NCBI GenBank assembly: GCA_905234175.1
Contig: CAJOGX010000024.1
Span: forward strand, 1 to 39,203
DNA: 39,203 nucleotides
Source: an uncultured Selenomonadaceae bacterium
GTDB taxonomy: Bacteria > Bacillota > Negativicutes > Selenomonadales > Selenomonadaceae
Direction: 5' to 3'
Shown here: positions 19,558 through 35,717 of the stretch, piece by piece
Layout: each line of letters opens with the position of its first letter
Position numbering within the stretch: position 1 is the first letter of the stretch
The notes under the pieces: model-generated
Told to the model about the DNA's origin: nothing
Databases searched by the model: none
The model's input: the letters and a program-made list of their open reading frames with translations, nothing else
Made by a program: the position numbers and the translations under genes

Positions 19558-20103
19558 TCAGCTGTTCTTTTTGAGCTGCTGAGTGGTCTCCTTGAGGTTG
19601 TTGCGAATCGCGCCCTTGACGGCGGCGGTAGCTTTGAAAGTTGCGTCGTCGATTTTATCAGCGGCGGCGTCGACTTTTTCCGCGACGGTCTCTTTGATAG
19701 ACTTTTTGGTTTCGGCGACGGTCTCTTTGGCGTTGGAAAGGTCAGCTTTCGCGGCGGTAACGGCCTCTTTGGTGTCGTCAACTTTTTCAGCGACGGCCTC
19801 TTTAACGTCATCTTTTACGCCGACGAGGTCTTTTTTGGCAGCGGCAACGCGTTCTTTGGCGTCTTCGACGGCCTCTTTCGCGTCTTCAACTTTTTCCGCG
19901 ACAGATTTTTTAACATCGTCCTTAACGCCGACGAGGTCCTTTTTGGCAGCGGCAACGCGTTCCTTAGCGTCGTCAACTTTTTCTTCAACGGCCTCTTTCG
20001 CGTTGGAAATTTTTTCCTTAGCGCTGTCAACGGCGTTATCGAGTTTTTCAGCCACGGCGCCGGCCTTTTCAGCGGCAGCGTCAACGAGTGATTTGATAGA
20101 CAT
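19558..20103 (-). CDS. LEA-like / apolipoprotein-like helical repeat protein
   Basis: 181 residues, ATG at 20103 with GGAGG six bases upstream. Composition is almost only Ala, Lys, Asp, Glu and Val; there is no Cys, Trp, Tyr or Pro. Eleven-residue periodicity of the AKEAVEEKVDD type is seen throughout, as in LEA group 3 proteins. A 36-residue unit is duplicated, with DAKERVAAAKKDLVGVKDD at about 45 and again at 81. It should form long amphipathic helices or be disordered until drying or membrane contact. No signal peptide is present. It follows alaS by 15 bases, an odd partner for a tRNA synthetase. Stress protection is inference from family resemblance. Confidence 0.8.
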   Translation of the reverse strand: MSIKSLVDAAAEKAGAVAEKLDNAVDSAKEKISNAKEAVEEKVDDAKERVAAAKKDLVGVKDDVKKSVAEKVEDAKEAVEDAKERVAAAKKDLVGVKDDVKEAVAEKVDDTKEAVTAAKADLSNAKETVAETKKSIKETVAEKVDAAADKIDDATFKATAAVKGAIRNNLKETTQQLKKNS

Positions 20104-29884: not shown

Positions 29885-30124
29885 TTGAAAAAAATTTTCG
29901 CTGTAGTTTTGACGGTGCTGGCTTTAACGGCGGCAACGGCGACGGTTATGGCGGTGCCCGCGCTTTACGATACGCCGTACATTGGGAATCGCTACAGACA
30001 TACTTTTCATTATCACGAATGTAAATCCGTGAATCAAATGAATCCGGAAAATCAGGTGCCGCTCGAAAGTCGTGAAGAGGCTATTCGTCAGGGTTTCAGA
30101 CCTTGCGGAAATTGCAGGCCGTGA
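29885..30124 (+). CDS. Small exported protein with Ada-type metal-binding fold
   Basis: 79 residues from TTG 29885; GTG 29864 in the same frame overlaps the previous gene. Residues 1-24 form a signal peptide (KKIFAVVLTVLALTA). The mature part has IGNRYRHTFHYHECKSVNQM, then SREEAIRQGFRPCGNC, which matches the Ada/metal-binding pattern H...C...PCxxC. That domain is common in secreted nucleases and small proteins of Firmicutes; here it stands alone. It could bind zinc outside the cytoplasm. A TTG start with a weak ribosome binding site suggests low or coupled expression. The partner is unknown. Confidence 0.75.
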   Translation: MKKIFAVVLTVLALTAATATVMAVPALYDTPYIGNRYRHTFHYHECKSVNQMNPENQVPLESREEAIRQGFRPCGNCRP

Positions 30125-30137
30125 ATTGGTGGAGGAA

Positions 30138-30737
30138 ATGAGTTCAAAAGCATTGATGACATTGATAGAGTCGCTGACGAAACTGCCAGGCGTCGGGGCG
30201 AAAACGGCGGCGCGGCTGGCGTATCACATCGTGGACATGAGCGCGGAGGACGTGGCGGCGCTGGCGGAGGCCATTCGCAACATTAAAACTGAAACGCATA
30301 CCTGCGCGATTTGTTTCACGACGATTGACAGCGGGCGCGAGGTCTGCGAAATTTGCGAATCTCCCAGCCGCGACGATAAAACTATCTGCGTAGTCAAGGA
30401 CGCCAAGGATTTGGACGCGATTGAGCACGCGGATTTTTACAAAGGCAGATACCACGTTACCGGCGGGCTGATTTCGCCTATGGCGGGAACTGCGCAGGAA
30501 GATTTGCGCTTTAACGAGCTTTTGGAGCGCGTTCAGAAAAGCGGCGTCGCTGAAGTTATCGTGGCGTTCGAGCCGACAATCGAAGGGAATATTACCGCGC
30601 AGTTTATCGCCAAAATGCTCAAGCCCTTCGACGTGAAAGTTACAAAGCTCGCGCAGGGCATGGCGGTCGGCGCGGACTTTGCCGGTACTGACAGCGTGAC
30701 TATTGCCAGAGCTATCGAAAACCGCGTGCCAGTTTGA
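30138..30737 (+). CDS. recR: Recombination mediator RecR
   Basis: 199 residues from ATG 30138, the standard length, with GGTGGAGGA just upstream. The helix-hairpin-helix is in LTKLPGVGAKTAARLA, the zinc finger in CAICFTTIDSGREVCEIC, and the Toprim domain in ICVVKDAKDLDAIE and RYHVTGGLISPM. With RecO and RecF it loads RecA onto gapped DNA. In Bacillus recR is followed closely by bofA; here 3 kb of peptide cassettes lie between. dnaX and the YbaB gene, common upstream neighbours, are absent. Confidence 0.96.
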   Translation: MSSKALMTLIESLTKLPGVGAKTAARLAYHIVDMSAEDVAALAEAIRNIKTETHTCAICFTTIDSGREVCEICESPSRDDKTICVVKDAKDLDAIEHADFYKGRYHVTGGLISPMAGTAQEDLRFNELLERVQKSGVAEVIVAFEPTIEGNITAQFIAKMLKPFDVKVTKLAQGMAVGADFAGTDSVTIARAIENRVPV

Positions 30738-30754
30738 ATAAAAATTTGCAACTG

Positions 30755-30790
30755 AAAAAACCCTCCGACAATCGCCGAAGGGCTTTTTTT
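30755..30790. terminator. Bidirectional terminator between recR and peptide cassette A
   Basis: An imperfect hairpin at 30761-30782 (CCCT with AGGG plus an inner CGA with TCG) with A6 on one side and a T8 run on the other. Versions of it follow cassettes B at 31081, C at 31393, D at 31988 and E at 32537. Confidence 0.75.
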
Positions 30791-30806
30791 TAGCTTTTTT
30801 TCGCGT

Positions 30807-30980
30807 TTATGCAAAAATAATCACCCGATTTTGATTCTCAATCTTTACTGCCGGGTCTTTCTCAACGTCGCCGCTGTTAGAATGAGCATAAAAGCTGCCG
30901 ACGACCTTTTCGAGCTGCTCATCGTCGAGTTTTTCGAGTTCGTCGTTGATTTTCTTGATGTTTTCCTCTCTTGTTGCCAT
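30807..30980 (-). CDS. Leader-type small peptide A
   Basis: 57 residues, ATG 30980 with AAGGAG upstream. The N-terminal 28 residues (ATREENIKKINDELEKLDDE, then QLEKVVG) resemble the leader half of the neighbouring double-glycine peptides, but VAGG is replaced by VVGS. The C-terminal half, SFYAHSNSGDVEKDPAVK and an end in VIIFA, is nearly the same as in peptides B and E. It has no Cys, so lanthionine or disulfide formation is excluded. It may be a secreted peptide, an immunity or decoy form, or a decayed precursor. Its promoter and leader are those of the whole array. Confidence 0.7.
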   Translation of the reverse strand: MATREENIKKINDELEKLDDEQLEKVVGSFYAHSNSGDVEKDPAVKIENQNRVIIFA

Positions 30981-31043
30981 TTTCTCCTTTAGGTTAATTT
31001 TGTTTTCTGCACCTTATACGCAGGGGTTCCAAATTTATTAAGT

Positions 31044-31072
31044 AGTCTAGCAAAAAAAATTTCCGCTGTCAA
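31044..31072 (-). promoter_or_regulatory. Cassette promoter A
   Basis: On the minus strand, TTGACA (31067-31072), a 17-base spacer, TAGACT (31044-31049). The shared 13-base motif ACCTTATACGCAG (plus strand 31011-31023) lies in the leader, about 20 bases past the -10 box. Confidence 0.8.
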
Positions 31073-31126
31073 CGAAAAAACCCTCCGACAATCGCCGAAG
31101 GGCTTTTTTTTAGCTTTTTTTCGCGT

Positions 31127-31300
31127 TTATAAAAAAATAAGTAGCCGATTTTGATTCTCAATCTTTACTGCCGGGTCTTTCTCAACGTCGCCGCTGTTAG
31201 AACGAGCATAAAAGCTGCCGACGACCTTTTCGAGCTGCTCATCGTCGAGTTTTTCGAGTTCGTCGTTGATTTTCTTGATGTTTTCCTCTCTTGTTGCCAT
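31127..31300 (-). CDS. Leader-type small peptide B, duplicate of A
   Basis: 57 residues, ATG 31300. It equals peptide A except His to Arg in FYARSNSG and the ending LLIFL. The DNA identity extends through promoter, leader and terminator, so cassettes A and B are a recent tandem duplication of about 315 bases. The AAGGAG before A is lost here: the leader reads CCTAAAAA before the ATG, a short deletion that removes the ribosome binding site. It is probably translated poorly or not at all. Confidence 0.65.
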   Translation of the reverse strand: MATREENIKKINDELEKLDDEQLEKVVGSFYARSNSGDVEKDPAVKIENQNRLLIFL

Positions 31301-31358
31301 TTTTTAGGCTAATTTTGTTTTCTGCACCTTATACGCAGGGGTTCCAAATTTATTAAGT

Positions 31359-31387
31359 AGTCTAGCAAAAAAAATTTCCGCCGTCAA
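31359..31387 (-). promoter_or_regulatory. Cassette promoter B
   Basis: On the minus strand, TTGACG (31382-31387), a 17-base spacer, TAGACT (31359-31364). Shared motif at 31326-31338. Confidence 0.8.
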
Positions 31388-31471
31388 ACTGAAAAACCCT
31401 CCGACGCGCCGCCGAAGGGCTTTTTTTGCTGATTTGCGACCGTGACGCCGCGTTTTTTCCGTCGAAACGGA

Positions 31472-31846
31472 TTATAAGGCATAACCGCCTTTCCCTTCGG
31501 GCAGATCTTGCAAATTTCTGCCGAACTTTTTGAGGGCGTAGTCAAATGCTTGCCGGCGACTAATTTTTTCACCATTAAGGTAGTATAAGTTGCTATCTGA
31601 AAAGCCCGTGTGGACAGTGATTCCGACTTTACTCCAACCTTTAGCGGCTTCATCTGAAACTGTAATGTTATAAAAAAATGCTTTTGTTGCGCCGAAACGA
31701 TCGCACAGTCCCGCCAAATCGTTCAGGAAGCGGGTGTCTCCGGCTGTTTCTTTGTACGTGCCGCCGGCGACCTGTTCGAGTTCCTCATCGCTCATTGCTT
31801 CGAGTTCGTCATTGATTTTTTTGATGTTATCTTCGCGATTTGCCAT
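31472..31846 (-). CDS. Double-glycine leader protein C
   Basis: 124 residues, ATG 31846 with AAGGAG nine bases upstream. The leader (about 29 residues) is ANREDNIKKINDELEAMSDE followed by ELEQVAGG, a typical bacteriocin-type double-glycine leader. The mature part of about 95 residues starts TYKETAGDTRFLNDLAGLCD, has one Cys, and ends with KISRRQAFDYALKKFGR and GKGGYAL. It is close to protein D along its length. By family logic it would be cut after GG and exported by a peptidase-containing ABC transporter encoded elsewhere. Whether it is a bacteriocin, a modified peptide or an adhesive or signalling protein is unknown. Confidence 0.8.
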   Translation of the reverse strand: MANREDNIKKINDELEAMSDEELEQVAGGTYKETAGDTRFLNDLAGLCDRFGATKAFFYNITVSDEAAKGWSKVGITVHTGFSDSNLYYLNGEKISRRQAFDYALKKFGRNLQDLPEGKGGYAL

Positions 31847-31955
31847 TGTTATCAGTCTCCTTTTAAATTTTTACGTTGCTGTCGATTCAGCTTGTCCTTT
31901 GCGGCTCTGTTTTTTCTTTCTGTCGCTTATACGTTCAAAATCAGTTTTCGTTACA

Positions 31956-31984
31956 AGTTTAGCAAAAAAATTTTTCGCCGTCAA
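31956..31984 (-). promoter_or_regulatory. Cassette promoter C
   Basis: On the minus strand, TTGACG (31979-31984), a 17-base spacer, TAAACT (31956-31961). The leader keeps only a partial form of the 13-base motif (CTTATACGT). Confidence 0.75.
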
Positions 31985-32071
31985 TGAAAAACCATCCGAC
32001 AGTGCGCCGAAGGGCTTTTTTTGATTCGAGTTGCGATCGTGACGCCGCGTTTTTTTCGTCGAAACGGATTA

Positions 32072-32437
32072 TCAGTAACCTTTCCCTTCGGGCATATCTT
32101 TCCACGTTTTGCCGAACTTTTTGATGGCGTATTCCATTGCTTGCTCGCGAGTAATTGATTTACCTTTAAGGTAGTATTGGTTTTCACCGAACCAGACCGG
32201 GCTGACCTGGATTCCGACTTTACTCCAACCTTTACAGGCTTCATCTGCAACTGTACCGTACTTGAAAAATCCTGCAGTTGCGCCGAAACGATCGCACAGT
32301 CCCGCCAAATCGTTCAGGAAGCGGGTGTCTCCGGCTGTTGATTTCCACGAGCCGCCTGCGACCTGGTCGAGTTCCTCATCGCTCATAAGTTCGAGTTCAT
32401 CATTGATTTTTTTAATGTTTTCTTCGCGATTTGCCAT
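32072..32437 (-). CDS. Double-glycine leader protein D
   Basis: 121 residues. ATG 32437 has GGAGG nine bases upstream; a TTG nine bases earlier lies next to the ribosome binding site. Leader: ANREENIKKINDELELMSDE then ELDQVAGG. The mature part shares AGDTRFLNDLAGLCDRFGAT with protein C exactly and ends KSITREQAMEYAIKKFGK, then PEGKGY. Residues between the blocks differ (FFKYGTVADEACKGWSKVGI), adding a second Cys at ADEACKG. C and D are thus diverged paralogues with a conserved start and end. Confidence 0.8.
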   Translation of the reverse strand: MANREENIKKINDELELMSDEELDQVAGGSWKSTAGDTRFLNDLAGLCDRFGATAGFFKYGTVADEACKGWSKVGIQVSPVWFGENQYYLKGKSITREQAMEYAIKKFGKTWKDMPEGKGY

Positions 32438-32498
32438 ATTTATCAACCTCCAAATTGCTTTCTATACCTTATACGCAGAAGCTGCAAATTTATTAAGA

Positions 32499-32527
32499 AG
32501 TTTAGCAAAAAAAATTTCCGCCGTCAA
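32499..32527 (-). promoter_or_regulatory. Cassette promoter D
   Basis: On the minus strand, TTGACG (32522-32527), a 17-base spacer, TAAACT (32499-32504). Shared motif at 32466-32478. Confidence 0.8.
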
Positions 32528-32585
32528 ACTGAAAAACCCTCCGACAATCGCCGAAGGGCTTTTTTTTAGCTTTTTTTCGCGTTTA

Positions 32586-32774
32586 TCAAAAAATAATAAG
32601 TAGCCGATTTTGATTCTCAATCTTTACTGCCTGGTCTTTCTCAACGTCGCCGCTGTTAGAACGAGCATAAAAGCTGCCATCTACGCCGTCAAGTACAAGT
32701 TCATCGCCGCCAGCCACGCTGTCGAGTTGCTCATCGGGGAGCATTTCGTCCACGATTTTCTTTTCCTCTGCCAT
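32586..32774 (-). CDS. Double-glycine leader peptide E, chimeric
   Basis: 62 residues, ATG 32774 with AGAGGA nine bases upstream. The leader AEEKKIVDEMLPDEQLDSVAGG, given here in outline only, is like that of protein F, while the mature part after VAGG contains GSFYARSNSGDVEKDQAVK and ends LLIIF, the same module as peptides A and B. So a different leader is joined to the A/B-type core. No promoter or terminator separates it from F (33 bases upstream), so F and E form one transcript. Confidence 0.75.
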   Translation of the reverse strand: MAEEKKIVDEMLPDEQLDSVAGGDELVLDGVDGSFYARSNSGDVEKDQAVKIENQNRLLIIF

Positions 32775-32807
32775 TGAGCTCAATCCTCTTTCGTTTAAGG
32801 CCGTGCC

Positions 32808-33119
32808 TTAGCGGATAATCTTAGTGCCGTTTTCAGCGTCGAAGTTCTTCCAAAATTCGTCGCGGGTAATGAGTTTGCCGGTTTTGTCGGTGTAAATGTT
32901 GGCGTTAACCAGACCGCCTCTGTCCTCATAGCCGACGTAGCCCATTTTGTGGAGCATGTTGCGCACATGAGCCGCGCTGAGTGCGTCATCTGCGCTCAAA
33001 AGTCCGCGCTTGTAGAGTTGGTCGCCGTCTACGAACGTTTCGATCCTGTTGCCTCCCGCAACGTTGTCGAGTTCCTCGTCCTTCAGAATTTCGTCCTTCA
33101 AAATTTTGTCTTCCGCCAT
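32808..33119 (-). CDS. Double-glycine leader protein F
   Basis: 103 residues. ATG 33119 follows GGAGGTTGATAAAA. Leader: AEDKILKDEILKDEELDNVAGG in outline, ending in VAGG at about residue 23. The mature part (about 80 residues) has VDGDQLYKRGLLSADDALS, HVRNMLHKMGYVGYEDRGG and KLITRDEFWKNFD. The last piece resembles the ITREQAMEYAIKKF and ISRRQAFDYALKKF endings of D and C, so a common C-terminal motif is likely. It has no Cys. The leader DNA (33120-33180) is almost identical to that of cassette D. Confidence 0.78.
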   Translation of the reverse strand: MAEDKILKDEILKDEELDNVAGGNRIETFVDGDQLYKRGLLSADDALSAAHVRNMLHKMGYVGYEDRGGLVNANIYTDKTGKLITRDEFWKNFDAENGTKIIR

Positions 33120-33180
33120 TTTTATCAACCTCCAAATTGCTTTCTATACCTTATACGCAGAAGCTGCAAATTTATTAAGA

Positions 33181-33209
33181 AGTTTAGCAAAAAAATTTTC
33201 CGCAGTCAA
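33181..33209 (-). promoter_or_regulatory. Cassette promoter F
   Basis: On the minus strand, TTGACT (33204-33209), a 17-base spacer, TAAACT (33181-33186). Shared motif at 33148-33160. Confidence 0.8.
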
Positions 33210-33247
33210 ACGAAAACCCCCCCGACGCGACCGCCGAAGGGCTTTTG

Positions 33248-33471
33248 TTATTTGTCGCCGTAATTTTTGAATATCAGCCGTTTTTTTCGTCGATTCTAGC
33301 GCTCCACCAGCCCGATAGTTCACCTTTTAACGGTTCCGGCTTGCCTGTGCACTTGTAGCCGTTCCTGTCGATGTCTTTCAGCAGATTGTTTATCCGATTC
33401 AGCGTCTTTTTGTCCTGCGTCTGCCAGTACATGTAGTCCGCAAAGGCTTTTTCAGTGAACTTCTTGTCCAT
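33248..33471 (-). pseudogene. YoeB-like toxin, frameshifted and truncated
   Basis: From ATG 33471 the frame gives 65 residues: FTEKAFADYMYWQTQDKKTL, LLKDIDRNGYKCTGKPEPLK and GELSGWWSARIDEKNG, the YoeB/Txe fold through the catalytic Glu and Arg. It then stops at 33274. A frame shifted by one base within the preceding run of seven A continues RLIFKNYGDK, as expected for YoeB (NRLIFKI), and meets a stop at 33248. The last strand with the catalytic His near residue 83 is missing in both frames. The mRNA-cleaving toxin is therefore probably inactive. Its start overlaps the antitoxin end. Confidence 0.75.
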
Positions 33472-33712
33472 TAACGAATTTCTCCCATTCTTCCGCCGTA
33501 AAGCTGACAACCTTACCTTCTTCAACTTCGTTAATTGATTCTTGCAGATGTTTGAGGTTTTCGTCGCTCCAGAATGGATCCAGTTCCAGTTTCCCGCCGT
33601 ATTTGACGCTGTTAATCAAAATCTTGATGCACTCGCCCAGGCTCATTCCCGTTGTTTCCGTGAACTCCTTCAGGTCGTCGCTGTCTATCGCTATACTTAT
33701 GTTTTCAGTCAT
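33452..33712 (-). CDS. RelB/DinJ-type antitoxin
   Basis: 86 residues, ATG 33712 after GGAGGCGATAAG. The ribbon-helix-helix half is ENISIAIDSDDLKEFTETTG, in part, and MSLGECIKILINSV; the toxin-binding half has FWSDENLKHLQESINEVEEG and ends EEWEKFVNGQEVH. It is intact although the adjacent YoeB-like gene is broken, so it may survive as an orphan regulator. It would bind the palindrome in its own promoter spacer. That promoter belongs to the same family as those of the peptide cassettes. Confidence 0.82.
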   Translation of the reverse strand: MTENISIAIDSDDLKEFTETTGMSLGECIKILINSVKYGGKLELDPFWSDENLKHLQESINEVEEGKVVSFTAEEWEKFVNGQEVH

Positions 33713-33731
33713 TCTTATCGCCTCCGAGGCA

Positions 33732-33760
33732 AGTCTAGCGGAAAAATTTTCCGCCGTCAA
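33732..33760 (-). promoter_or_regulatory. Antitoxin promoter with palindromic spacer
   Basis: On the minus strand, TTGACG (33755-33760) and TAGACT (33732-33737) enclose a 17-base spacer GCGGAAAAATTTTCCGC (plus-strand reading 33738-33754), a perfect inverted repeat with eight-base arms. It is a likely operator for the antitoxin. Confidence 0.7.
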
Positions 33761-33768
33761 GAAAATGT

Positions 33769-33776
33769 GCTATAAT
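33769..33776 (+). promoter_or_regulatory. Extended -10 promoter of bofA
   Basis: TGC followed by TATAAT around 33767-33776, with no good -35 element. It faces away from the antitoxin promoter. Confidence 0.45.
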
Positions 33777-33821
33777 GAGCGGCGCAGGAATTTAGCCTGC
33801 CTGAAAGGAGTCGCTATTAAA

Positions 33822-34064: not shown

Positions 34065-35717
34065 ATGATTCAACTTGATAAAGTAACGAAATTTTACGGC
34101 GAGCGGCTGATTTTTTCTGACGTGAGTTTCAAAATCGCGGACGGCGAAAAGGTCGGTATCGTCGGCAGGAACGGCGCCGGTAAGTCCACGCTGATTCGCG
34201 TCATGCTCGGCGCAGAGGAATTTGAAGGCGGAACTATCAACGGCCTTCGCAAAGAGGACATAGGTTACGCGGAACAAATCCCGCAGTTTGAAAAACCTAC
34301 GCTGCTGGCGGAAATGCTCAGCGCTGACGTTGAGGAATTTCAAGCGCGGAAAATTCTGTTTGGCTTAGGTTTTACGGAGCCGGAGCTTGCGAAAAATCCC
34401 AACGAGTTCAGCGGCGGCGAAACTGCTAAAATCGCGCTGGCAAAATCTTTACTCGACGAGCCGCGCGTTTTAATCCTCGACGAGCCCACCAACCACCTCG
34501 ACATTTACGCCATAGATTTTCTGGAAGATTTTCTGAAGAATTACCGCTACACTGTCATCGCCGTCACGCACGACCGCCATTTCCTTCAAAACTGCGTCGA
34601 CAAAATTATAGATATGGAAAACTGCCGCGCGACTGTCTACAGCGCGAACTACGAAAAATTTGTTCAGCTCAAACGCGAGCGCCGCGAATTTGAACTCAAA
34701 GCCTACGAAAAGCAGCAGGAGGAAATTGCCAGGCTGGAAGATTTCGTGCGCCGCAACAAAGTCCGCGCCTCTACTGCTAAGCGCGCCCGCAGCCGCCAGA
34801 TTAAGCTTGACAAAATGGAACGCCTTGAAAAGCCGCCGTCCGAAGAAACCGTTAAACTCCGCCTGAGCGACGCCAGCGAATCCGCTAACCGCGTGCTCAT
34901 TCTCGACAAAATCAATTTCAAGGGCATTATCAAAAATTTCAGCGCCGAAATTCGCAAGGGCGAAAAGGTCGGCTTAATCGGCCGCAACGGTATCGGCAAA
35001 TCCACCCTGCTCAAAATTATCGTCGGCGATTTGCGCGCAGATTCCGGCAGCGTCAAAATCGGCAACCGCGTCAAGGTCGGCTACCTTTCGCAGGGACACG
35101 AGGAACTCAGCGAAAATTCTACCGCCATCGAGGAACTCATCAACAATTTCGGTCTGAACATTGAGCAGGCGCGTTCCGAACTCGCAAGGCTTGACTTGTT
35201 CGCGCAGGTCGTAGAAAAACCAATCGCCGATATGTCTGGGGGAGAAAAAACGCGCGTCGCCCTCGCTAAACTTATTCTTACCGGCGCTAATTTTCTGATT
35301 CTCGACGAGCCGACGAATCATCTGGATTTGCCCGCGCGCGAAGCGATTGAATCTGCGCTGAGGAGTTTCGACGGCACGCTTTTAATCGTCACGCACGACA
35401 GATATTTACTTGACGCCGTAACCAGCCGCGTCATCGAATTTGAAGACCGTCCCGCGCCAGTTCGGGCAAAATCTGAAAAAGTTTCAAAGCCGCCAGCAAA
35501 GTCAAAGCCAGCGCCGAAAGTTTCCAGGCCGCCGGAAAAAACCGAACAGCAGCTTGAAAAACTCGAAGCTCAAATCAAAATGGCGGAAATGGAACTGAAA
35601 ATGCTGGAGCGCGAAATAAATTCAGCGTCGGAACCCGCGCGACTGGCTGAGCTGGCGGCGGCGCACGAGGCAAAACTGGCGGAAATTGACGCGCTCTACG
35701 AATTGCTCGCGGAATAA
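34065..35717 (+). CDS. ABC-F family ATPase
   Basis: 550 residues, soluble, with two ATPase domains: Walker A GRNGAGKST and GRNGIGKST, signatures FSGGETAKIALAK and MSGGEKTRVALAK, Walker B ILDEPTNHLD twice. The linker between them (about 205-275) is charged and helical (KQQEEIARLEDFVRRNKVRA) and corresponds to the P-site tRNA-reaching arm. A C-terminal coiled coil follows after a Pro/Lys-rich stretch. Such proteins act on stalled ribosomes; some give antibiotic resistance by target protection. Which subgroup this is cannot be decided by eye; the layout is closest to the housekeeping Uup/YdiF-like types. Confidence 0.92.
   Translation: MIQLDKVTKFYGERLIFSDVSFKIADGEKVGIVGRNGAGKSTLIRVMLGAEEFEGGTINGLRKEDIGYAEQIPQFEKPTLLAEMLSADVEEFQARKILFGLGFTEPELAKNPNEFSGGETAKIALAKSLLDEPRVLILDEPTNHLDIYAIDFLEDFLKNYRYTVIAVTHDRHFLQNCVDKIIDMENCRATVYSANYEKFVQLKRERREFELKAYEKQQEEIARLEDFVRRNKVRASTAKRARSRQIKLDKMERLEKPPSEETVKLRLSDASESANRVLILDKINFKGIIKNFSAEIRKGEKVGLIGRNGIGKSTLLKIIVGDLRADSGSVKIGNRVKVGYLSQGHEELSENSTAIEELINNFGLNIEQARSELARLDLFAQVVEKPIADMSGGEKTRVALAKLILTGANFLILDEPTNHLDLPAREAIESALRSFDGTLLIVTHDRYLLDAVTSRVIEFEDRPAPVRAKSEKVSKPPAKSKPAPKVSRPPEKTEQQLEKLEAQIKMAEMELKMLEREINSASEPARLAELAAAHEAKLAEIDALYELLAE

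Follow-up and report, generated by a model that had tools for sequence, protein, structure and literature searches.

Prochlorosins are short, cysteine-bearing lanthipeptides made by ProcM. They are found in marine picocyanobacteria (PMC10783134). Precursors of the NHLP and Nif11 types carry the GG of their leaders at about residues 70-83 (Haft et al., 2010, PMC2887384), and regulation of microbisporicin involves the ECF sigma factor MibX and the anti-sigma factor MibW (PMC4973701). No cultures exist of Quinella, which is abundant in certain low-methane sheep (PMC9585023). The source genome analyzed here is probably that of a Quinella, an uncultured rumen member of the Selenomonadaceae; the window, i.e., the whole stretch of DNA that was analyzed, is 39,203 nucleotides long. 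We consider it likely that an island of six small genes in this window belongs to a family of exported small proteins that is served by an NHLP-type exporter and forms the regulon of a dedicated ECF sigma factor.

The six genes, A to F, were all found on the minus strand as first annotated, with a recR-like gene adjoining the island and no further likely genes seen between A and F. Gene A (30807..30980) encodes 57 aa, consisting of the leader MATREENIKKINDELEKLDDEQLEKVVGS and a 28-residue core. Gene B (31127..31300), also of 57 aa, is a recent duplicate with a weak ribosome-binding site; the AAAGGAG present in A is absent from B. The two are 97% identical over 230 nt and therefore look like the result of a single recent duplication. 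A double-glycine leader precedes the core in gene C (31472..31846, 124 aa, 95-residue core), gene D (32072..32437, 121 aa, 92-residue core), gene E (32586..32774, 62 aa, 39-residue core of the A/B type) and gene F (32808..33119, 103 aa, 80-residue core). Gene E lacks a separate promoter and comes second, after F, in a shared transcription unit, which gives five units in total.

The initial annotation described leaders ending in VAGG in four genes, which holds for C, D, E, and F, while the leaders of A and B end in VVGS. An origin of A and B by a deletion fusing a C/D leader to an E core was considered and dropped; a change from GG to GS is simpler because relatives have the same short core directly after GG. 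The shared ending IT/SR..A..Y..KKFG was found in C and D as claimed but not in F, which belongs to the same profile as these two at 1.2e-31, being itself a row of that alignment. The proposed division between two types of core may go too far, as the A/B/E core might be taken for an abbreviated C-terminal module (likeness by eye, statistically weak, E = 0.07-0.09). The recurring hairpin was confirmed, its core GCCCTTCGGC being found seven times in the window and six of these in the island. A terminator-like hairpin, CCCTTCGG...GGGTTTTTT, follows A (30755..30784, minus strand), and like copies are located near 31075-31104, 31391-31421, 31986-32016, 32531-32560, and 33214-33243 (ranges by eye). 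The terminator scan listed the island copies at 33218-33241 and 31995-32011 alone, and its count of two in the window was below the shuffled mean of 4.4.

The six genes sample a larger system. In the source assembly, 26 matches to the profile were obtained at E values of up to 0.01, distributed across several contigs. Among 37 genomes of the genus, 28 were family-bearing and 9 family-less by profile search; 24 of the 28 carry 3 to 29 matches, but three (G019, G024, and G028) have a single weak match only. The family was found in none of 23 genomes outside the genus, a set without other Selenomonadaceae genera. A wider search identified relatives in 24 genomes from other genera of Selenomonadaceae, and because of these the claim that the family is restricted to the genus was dropped.

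The suggestion that the unrecognized cores belong to an undescribed family of exported peptides stands, with no Pfam or NCBIfam model over cut-off for any of A to F. Compared singly to Pfam, 77 aligned members gave a best E of 0.0036, and the commonest weak matches were double-glycine leaders. A profile search of solved structures with gene D (77-row alignment) gave 9zn4_A as the best match (E = 0.038), with a Nif11 C-terminal part placed on the leader, and nothing credible for the core of gene D (next E 0.75). The cut-off of the Nif11-like leader model TIGR03798 (32.3 bits) was not reached, with gene C at 13.9 bits and the other five unlisted, and no match to the NHLP leader model TIGR03793 (cut-off 50.9 bits) was listed for any of the six. 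No paper on the family was found among the literature matches listed.

It is possible, though in our view unlikely, that the products act as bacteriocins, of class II or resembling microcins, and kill competitors. Double-glycine leaders together with an NHLP-type exporter would fit such a function, and one gene under the shared promoter described below (L234) has a core that is glycine-rich and hydrophobic. With respect to class II bacteriocins, the genome has a C39 exporter and the genes encode GG leaders within 15-30 residues (ending in GS for A and B), but short cores that are cationic or hydrophobic were not found. In the window, the 28-39 aa cores of A, B, and E are short without being cationic, while C and D have cationic cores (pI 8.7 and 9.1) that are long and hydrophilic. 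For 143 large cores the medians were 90 aa, a GRAVY of -0.63, and a pI of 6.04, so that they are largely hydrophilic and close to neutral. Neither the island in the window nor, on visual inspection, the C12 array showed an immunity gene, and no NCBIfam bacteriocin model was over cut-off for the six genes. Together with the lack of a LanC-like domain in the genomes searched, this tells against the bacteriocin function proposed in the initial annotation.

The rates of evolution could also be taken to favor bacteriocins. Pooled over 251 pairs (260 of 771 eligible pairs were sampled and 9 dropped for want of a detected cleavage site), pN/pS was 0.45 for cores and 0.31 for leaders, and 0.20 for leaders in close pairs. 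Of 29 close pairs, 4 had a core dN above dS, and three of these 4 belong to the C/D subtype. General positive selection on the cores was nevertheless rejected because the pooled core value is 0.45 despite a dN/dS of 2.7 between the C and D cores, and we read the difference as faster evolution.

The promoter initially annotated as TTGACN-17-TARACT, here written TTGAC-N18-TARACT, was present before the transcription units. It has six copies in the 39 kb window, compared to none in 100 shuffles, of which five precede A (TAGACT, 31044..31072), B (TAGACT, 31359..31387), C (TAAACT, 31956..31984), D (TAAACT, 32499..32527), and F (F-E unit, TAAACT, 33181..33209), all on the minus strand. The sixth copy (33732-33760) precedes a YoeB-type toxin-antitoxin pair, so the element is not island-specific. 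A second element, [CT][TG]TAA[CT][AG]-N15-CGTATAA, was found in all five units, downstream of the TTGAC element and separated from it by 0-1 nt. On the minus strand it lies before A (CTTAATA-N15-CGTATAA, 31014..31042), B (31329..31357), C (in the sister form TGTAACG-N15-CGTATAA, 31927..31955), D (32469..32497), and the F-E unit (33151..33179), and we class it as an ECF-type promoter element. The CTTAAYA form gave four matches in the window, all exact, compared to a mean of 0.29 in shuffles with up to two mismatches allowed. This element is more telling than the TTGAC promoter, and the regulatory finding is our main new result.

The CTTAAYA form had 12 exact matches in the source genome (reversed-pattern control, 0). 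Eleven precede double-glycine genes, and the twelfth precedes the gene of a leader-like AAAG peptide beside an ECF-type sigma gene. The TGTAACG form had 111 matches in 17 of 60 genomes (reversed control, 6), all 17 being family-bearing members of the genus; 28 of 30 loci examined precede double-glycine genes, and two precede other proteins. That the shared promoter is due wholly to duplicated upstream DNA was rejected, since on other contigs the element lies in dissimilar surroundings. Some observations go against a strict promoter rule. Four of 23 CTTAAYA loci examined in other genomes of the genus lead to other proteins, 8 of the 28 carriers (G007, G013, G019, G024, G027, G028, G033, and G036) lack an exact match of either form, and the NHLM operon of the source genome has no copy within one mismatch.

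The ECF-type sigma factor, encoded at L153:4614-5162, is of 183 aa, with PF04542, PF08281, and PF07638 over cut-off (Sigma70_r2, 68 bits; r4_2, 49 bits; both over cut-off). Within the 37 genomes of the genus it was found in 22 of 28 family-bearing and 1 of 9 family-less genomes (p = 0.0006). At 14 of 21 loci the AAAG gene adjoins the sigma gene, lying downstream of it in 12 and upstream in 2, and in 10 of the 21 a copy of the promoter element precedes this AAAG gene. In G011, G028, and G031 a gene with NHLM ABC2 as its best family is located directly 5' of the sigma gene, which in G011 is followed by two double-glycine genes; in another genus (L256), genes for a sigma factor and an AAAG-like peptide lie side by side with family genes. 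However, the sigma loci adjoining NHLM ABC2 are without an AAAG gene, a terminator-like hairpin separates the AAAG gene from the sigma gene in the source genome (by eye), promoter types track the sigma tree in part only, and distant sigma matches (2e-23 or weaker) occur in 15 of the 23 genomes outside the genus. In a scan of the sigma-adjacent peptide for an anti-sigma factor, it matched no family.

The shared promoter might instead be read by the housekeeping sigma factor, with the neighborhood of the ECF sigma gene being incidental. In favor of this, the -10 part, CGTATAA, is similar to TATAAT, and TTGAC-N18-TARACT is located just upstream in the window. We find this improbable, as the element is almost confined to the family, has copies beside the sigma gene at the loci counted above, and the sigma factor and the family co-occur.

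The refutation proposed in the initial annotation, absence of a peptidase-containing transporter from every carrier, does not apply, since the source genome encodes an NHLP/Nif11-type (NHLM) export operon with all three subunits over curated cut-offs: ABC1 with its C39 peptidase, encoded at L024:8306-10543 (978 bits, cut-off 853), ABC2 (738 bits, cut-off 709), and HlyD (240 bits, cut-off 156). NHLM was found in 23 of 28 family-bearing vs 2 of 9 family-less genomes of the genus (Fisher p = 0.002). Two neighborhoods bear on NHLM export of the precursors, L198 and L252, the latter from another genus and with the NHLM operon adjoining four family genes. However, NHLM was not found in five carriers (G016, G020, G026, G027, and G030), which are drafts 59-86% complete; a C39 search in these gave type-I-secretion-like domains, with short matches in G020 and G026. 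Conversely, NHLM without the family was found in G018 (a partial copy) and G031.

Haft et al. (2010, PMC2887384) described the NHLP exporter together with precursors of modified peptides, and a genuine Nif11 precursor has the same promoter in G016 (L216). Both would be in agreement with the precursors being RiPP substrates, of lanthipeptide or azole type, modified before export. This is very unlikely, since a LanC-like domain was found in 0 of 38 genomes (24 of the genus), in a search directed at LanC alone that matched 1 of 14 known genomes as a control, and the cores contain 1.1% cysteine, with 57 of 143 having none. That the island is a decaying, functionless repeat array, as the near-identity of A and B, the ribosome-binding site missing from B, the GS in both and an internal stop in paralogue C17 could indicate, is hardly credible given the purifying selection on leaders and, on average, on cores, and the 88%-identical relative of gene D in another genome.

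There is good computational support for export by the NHLP-type transporter and for co-regulation, drawn from leader and core homology, presence of the exporter, co-occurrence, promoter specificity, and the neighborhoods of sigma, peptide, and exporter genes; cleavage and export themselves we infer. The six genes would thus be part of a Selenomonadaceae family whose small proteins are made as precursors, each bearing a short leader of the double-glycine type. This leader would be cleaved at GG, or at GS for A and B, by the C39 domain of the NHLM ABC exporter, whose genes lie at another site in the genome, whereupon the core would exit the cell. The dispersed genes would constitute one regulon, with the second element before each unit presumably read by the dedicated ECF-type sigma factor, whose gene appears usually to be adjoined by a small leader-like gene ending in AAAG or nearly so and often under the same promoter. 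Our guess is that the exported proteins act in competition or contact among rumen microbes. A rather unlikely extension is that the AAAG peptide itself leaves the cell by this route and acts as a sensor or signal; sigma factor, peptide, and exporter would then make up a self-inducing circuit that lets out an entire set of small folded proteins together, a peptide-gated secretome in Gram-negative rumen bacteria. If the proposed regulon is real, the promoter rule alone would find new members in many relatives, and what the bacterium secretes, and when, could be tested in rumen metatranscriptomes without culture.

Among known systems, class II bacteriocins and other double-glycine peptides (Bacteriocin_IIc, ComC, and CTB models) show weak similarity, mainly in the leader, but the large cores here are longer and hydrophilic, and no bacteriocin model was over cut-off. 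Prochlorosins likewise comprise many paralogous GG-leader precursors with a conserved leader and a variable core, but are ProcM lanthipeptides, whereas no LanC-like domain was found here in 38 genomes. Microbisporicin is alike in that an ECF sigma factor drives ribosomal-peptide genes with self-induction; as described there, it is one actinomycete cluster with a known anti-sigma factor, in contrast to a dispersed regulon with no recognized anti-sigma factor (PMC4973701). With the NHLP/Nif11 precursors and their NHLM exporter (TIGR03793, TIGR03798, TIGR03794/3796/3797), the present system has in common the same exporter proteins, a GG-ended leader of the ELSDEELxxVAGG type, and hypervariable precursors possibly encoded far from the exporter (Haft et al., 2010, PMC2887384). 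It differs in having window leaders of 23-29 residues without a Nif11 or NHLP domain, in large cores of about 90 residues that are cysteine-poor, with no LanC-like enzyme in the searched genomes, and in its sigma regulon, the word sigma occurring nowhere in the main text of PMC2887384. If correct, our reading would mean that NHLP-type export, beyond modified peptides, also serves small proteins that are unmodified and controlled by a dedicated sigma factor.

The island was found to hold six minus-strand small-protein genes (A-F), as the initial annotation had described. It is bordered by a recR-like gene (30072-30737, plus strand) and an ABC-F-like gene (34065-35717, plus strand), names that come from reading the sequence rather than from family models. 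Between F and the ABC-F-like gene lie a small toxin-antitoxin pair and one short open frame. The products of A to F comprise 57, 57, 124, 121, 62, and 103 residues, respectively. The VAGG leader ending claimed for four genes was recovered in C, D, E, and F, while the leaders of A and B end in VVGS. Identity is 97% over 230 nt between A and B with their flanks, which makes them near copies, and 82% over 300 nt between C and D. The ribosome-binding site present in A is missing from B (31293-31330). Gene E is located downstream of F without a promoter of its own, and the island therefore has five transcription units. A TTGAC-N18-TARACT element precedes all five, in line with the promoter proposed for each cassette, but it also precedes the toxin-antitoxin pair upstream and is thus not restricted to the island.

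This pair, a YoeB-type toxin gene and a presumed antitoxin gene (33274-33721, minus strand), immediately precedes the island and is itself preceded by the same element, as TTGAC-N18-TAGACT. The toxin matched PF06769 (2.6e-23, aligned to positions 1-60 of 80), and its frame appears truncated. Relatives of the toxin were present in 8 of 78 public family loci and those of the antitoxin in 7 of 78. Elsewhere in the window, two related open reading frames near both contig ends (1011-1607 and 38389-39090) carry an HNH-like stretch (N.K..VNH.DGN...N in the latter); they may encode homing or phage-type endonucleases. A 181-residue protein with charged repeats (AKKDLVGVKDDVK; 19558-20103, minus strand) is coiled-coil or LEA-like.

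Judged by sequence, genes A-F represent a sample of a wider family not confined to one island. Gene D used as query matched 15 places in its own assembly, itself included (E up to 1), and an eight-member profile gave 26 matches there, its own rows counted (E up to 0.01). Contig C12 carries an array of at least nine such genes in about 3.5 kb. The eight-member profile matched 28 of 60 relatives, all within the host's genus (28 of 37 genomes), three of them (G019, G024, and G028) by one weak match each; a second profile, built on the C12 subtype, matched 25 of 60, again all of the genus. In named species genomes the best 80 of 86 relatives, at 78 loci, were all filed under Quinella, Selenomonadaceae, or Selenomonadales. 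A broader profile matched 44 genomes in a 300-genome sample of the class: 19 of the genus, 24 from other genera of the same taxonomic family, and one elsewhere (5e-4). Some of the weaker profile matches may reflect the leader alone. No paper on the family was found among the matches listed in open-licence full texts, and the words "bacteriocin," "double-glycine," and "exporter" are absent from the main text of the Quinella genome paper (PMC9585023).

The compared upstream regions have an ECF-type element in common, CTTAAYA-N15-CGTATAA, located 0-1 nt 3' of the TTGAC element. The own genome contains 12 exact matches and none to the reversed pattern. Eleven precede double-glycine genes, one of which (contig C17) has an internal stop, and the twelfth precedes a 61-residue leader-like gene ending in VAAAG (AAAG gene), itself upstream of a sigma factor gene. 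Four further sites have one mismatch: two precede double-glycine-type genes (the leader of the one on C18 ends in VAGA), one a frame-broken leader gene, and one nothing recognisable. The other 59 relatives gave 29 matches in five genus genomes and one outside the genus, against two for the reversed control. Among 24 loci fetched, 13 led to double-glycine genes, five to the AAAG gene (for L178, an assignment based on the first residues alone), one to a Nif11-like precursor below cut-off, and four to other proteins; the sole fetched locus outside the genus led to none of these gene kinds.

A second form, TGTAACG-N15-CGTATAA, precedes gene C. It had 111 matches in 17 of 60 genomes, all of them family-bearing genus members (reversed control, six). 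With one site examined per locus, 28 of 30 fetched loci led to double-glycine genes, window gene C counted and a Nif11 precursor over its cut-off among them, and two did not. Eight of the 28 carriers lack an exact match to either form. By eye, G013 and G033 have a third, GTCATA-N15-CATATAA. G007 and G027 are also among the eight, and in G027 the genes follow long T-rich stretches; control may therefore differ in these two genomes. In other genera TAACAC...TATAAAG with similar spacing was seen by eye before arrays. In G034 a gene behind the CTTAAYA form (L173:1583-2275) is an odd fusion of a Nif11-like leader (20 bits) and, after it, an intein-like stretch (18.9 bits), both scoring below cut-off.

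The sigma protein (183 aa) matched sigma-70 regions 2 and 4 and, more weakly, an ECF family, all over cut-offs. An AAAG gene lies downstream of sigma in 12 of 21 loci read on both sides, eight of them with a copy of the promoter element in between, mostly TGTAACA. G035 has two copies, and the AAAG ending varies in one of these and in G029 and G036. In G000 and G034 the AAAG gene, with promoter element, is upstream of sigma. The gene directly 5' of sigma in G011, G028, and G031 has the NHLM exporter subunit ABC2 as best family (609-636 bits), below the 709-bit cut-off because it is cut by the locus end. Two double-glycine genes follow sigma in G011, which thus has exporter, sigma, and family genes in one contiguous run. 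A sigma relative was found within 10 kb of an NHLM gene in 9 of 21 genomes having both (G002, G007, G010, G017, G028, G031, G032, G033, and G035); the G007 relatives are distant (27-30% identity), and the G010 one is a fragment.

Among 37 genus genomes, 22 had family and sigma, six family only, one sigma only, and eight neither (p = 0.0006). Of the 23 genomes from outside the genus, 15 gave distant sigma matches, and in G315, of another genus, sigma, an AAAG-like gene, and family genes stand side by side (L256). In a tree built from 23 sigma proteins, with second copies left out and each genome assigned its commonest promoter form, promoter types were clustered: seven changes were needed versus a shuffled mean of 11.6, and none of 200 shuffles gave a value as low. 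The CTTAAYA and TGTAACG groups are each split over more than one clade, and deeper forks are unsure.

A C39-peptidase ABC transporter, which the initial annotation had suggested looking for in the rest of the genome, is present: contig C14 carries an NHLP-type operon with genes for an adaptor, an HlyD-like subunit, ABC1 (which includes the C39 peptidase), and ABC2; the HlyD-like subunit, ABC1, and ABC2 score above curated cut-offs. Counting three partial NHLM genes (G012, G018, and G032) as present, 23 of the 37 genus genomes had family and exporter, five family only, two exporter only, and seven neither (Fisher p = 0.002, a test weakened by shared ancestry). No NHLM was found in five carriers, all incomplete drafts; there a C39 search gave type-I-secretion-like domains and, in two, short matches. 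In G282, of another genus, an NHLM operon adjoins four family genes (L252); ABC1 (948 bits) and HlyD (212 bits) exceed their cut-offs, and ABC2 runs off the locus end. The own genome also encodes two ABC transporters that are type-I-secretion-like and contain C39-like domains (C9), as well as very large proteins with tandem GGAGND-type repeats (C12, L020 164-1906 and 2078-6433), which we take to be RTX-like.

The cores, reported as unrecognised, stayed so: none of A-F reached a Pfam or NCBIfam cut-off, the best E among 77 members scanned singly against Pfam was 0.0036, and the family profile gave nothing convincing against solved structures. Pairwise matches connect several own-genome subtypes, which have a common C-terminal pattern, N.Y..(N/G)GK.I(S/T)R..A; the A/B/E core is alignable to it by eye, with weak statistics (E = 0.07-0.09). 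Large cores from public loci (n = 143, from 145 sequences after two without a recognised cut site) have a median length of 90, pI of 6.04, and GRAVY of -0.63, with 1.1% Cys overall. They resemble small soluble proteins rather than membrane-active peptides. A gene behind a TGTAACG promoter in G015 (L234:1568-1798) differs from the other family members: its core is Gly-rich and hydrophobic, in appearance like that of a classical bacteriocin. Pooled pN/pS over 251 pairs was 0.31 for leaders and 0.45 for cores; the genes are therefore constrained, with cores changing faster. In 29 close pairs (core dS < 0.5) the values were 0.20 and 0.50, and core dN exceeded dS in four.

In the most likely mechanism, some condition would lead to release or synthesis of the sigma factor, which would turn on the dispersed units together. 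The leaders would mark the precursors for recognition, the C39 domain would cut, and the cores would be exported. Beside the observed sequence relations, exporter presence, promoter specificity, and neighbourhoods, we infer precursor cleavage, export, and recognition of the promoter by sigma; that the cores serve microbe-microbe competition or contact is a guess. The exporter and the GG leader are of the NHLP kind described by Haft et al. (2010; PMC2887384), and ECF control of a ribosomal peptide has a precedent in microbisporicin (PMC4973701).
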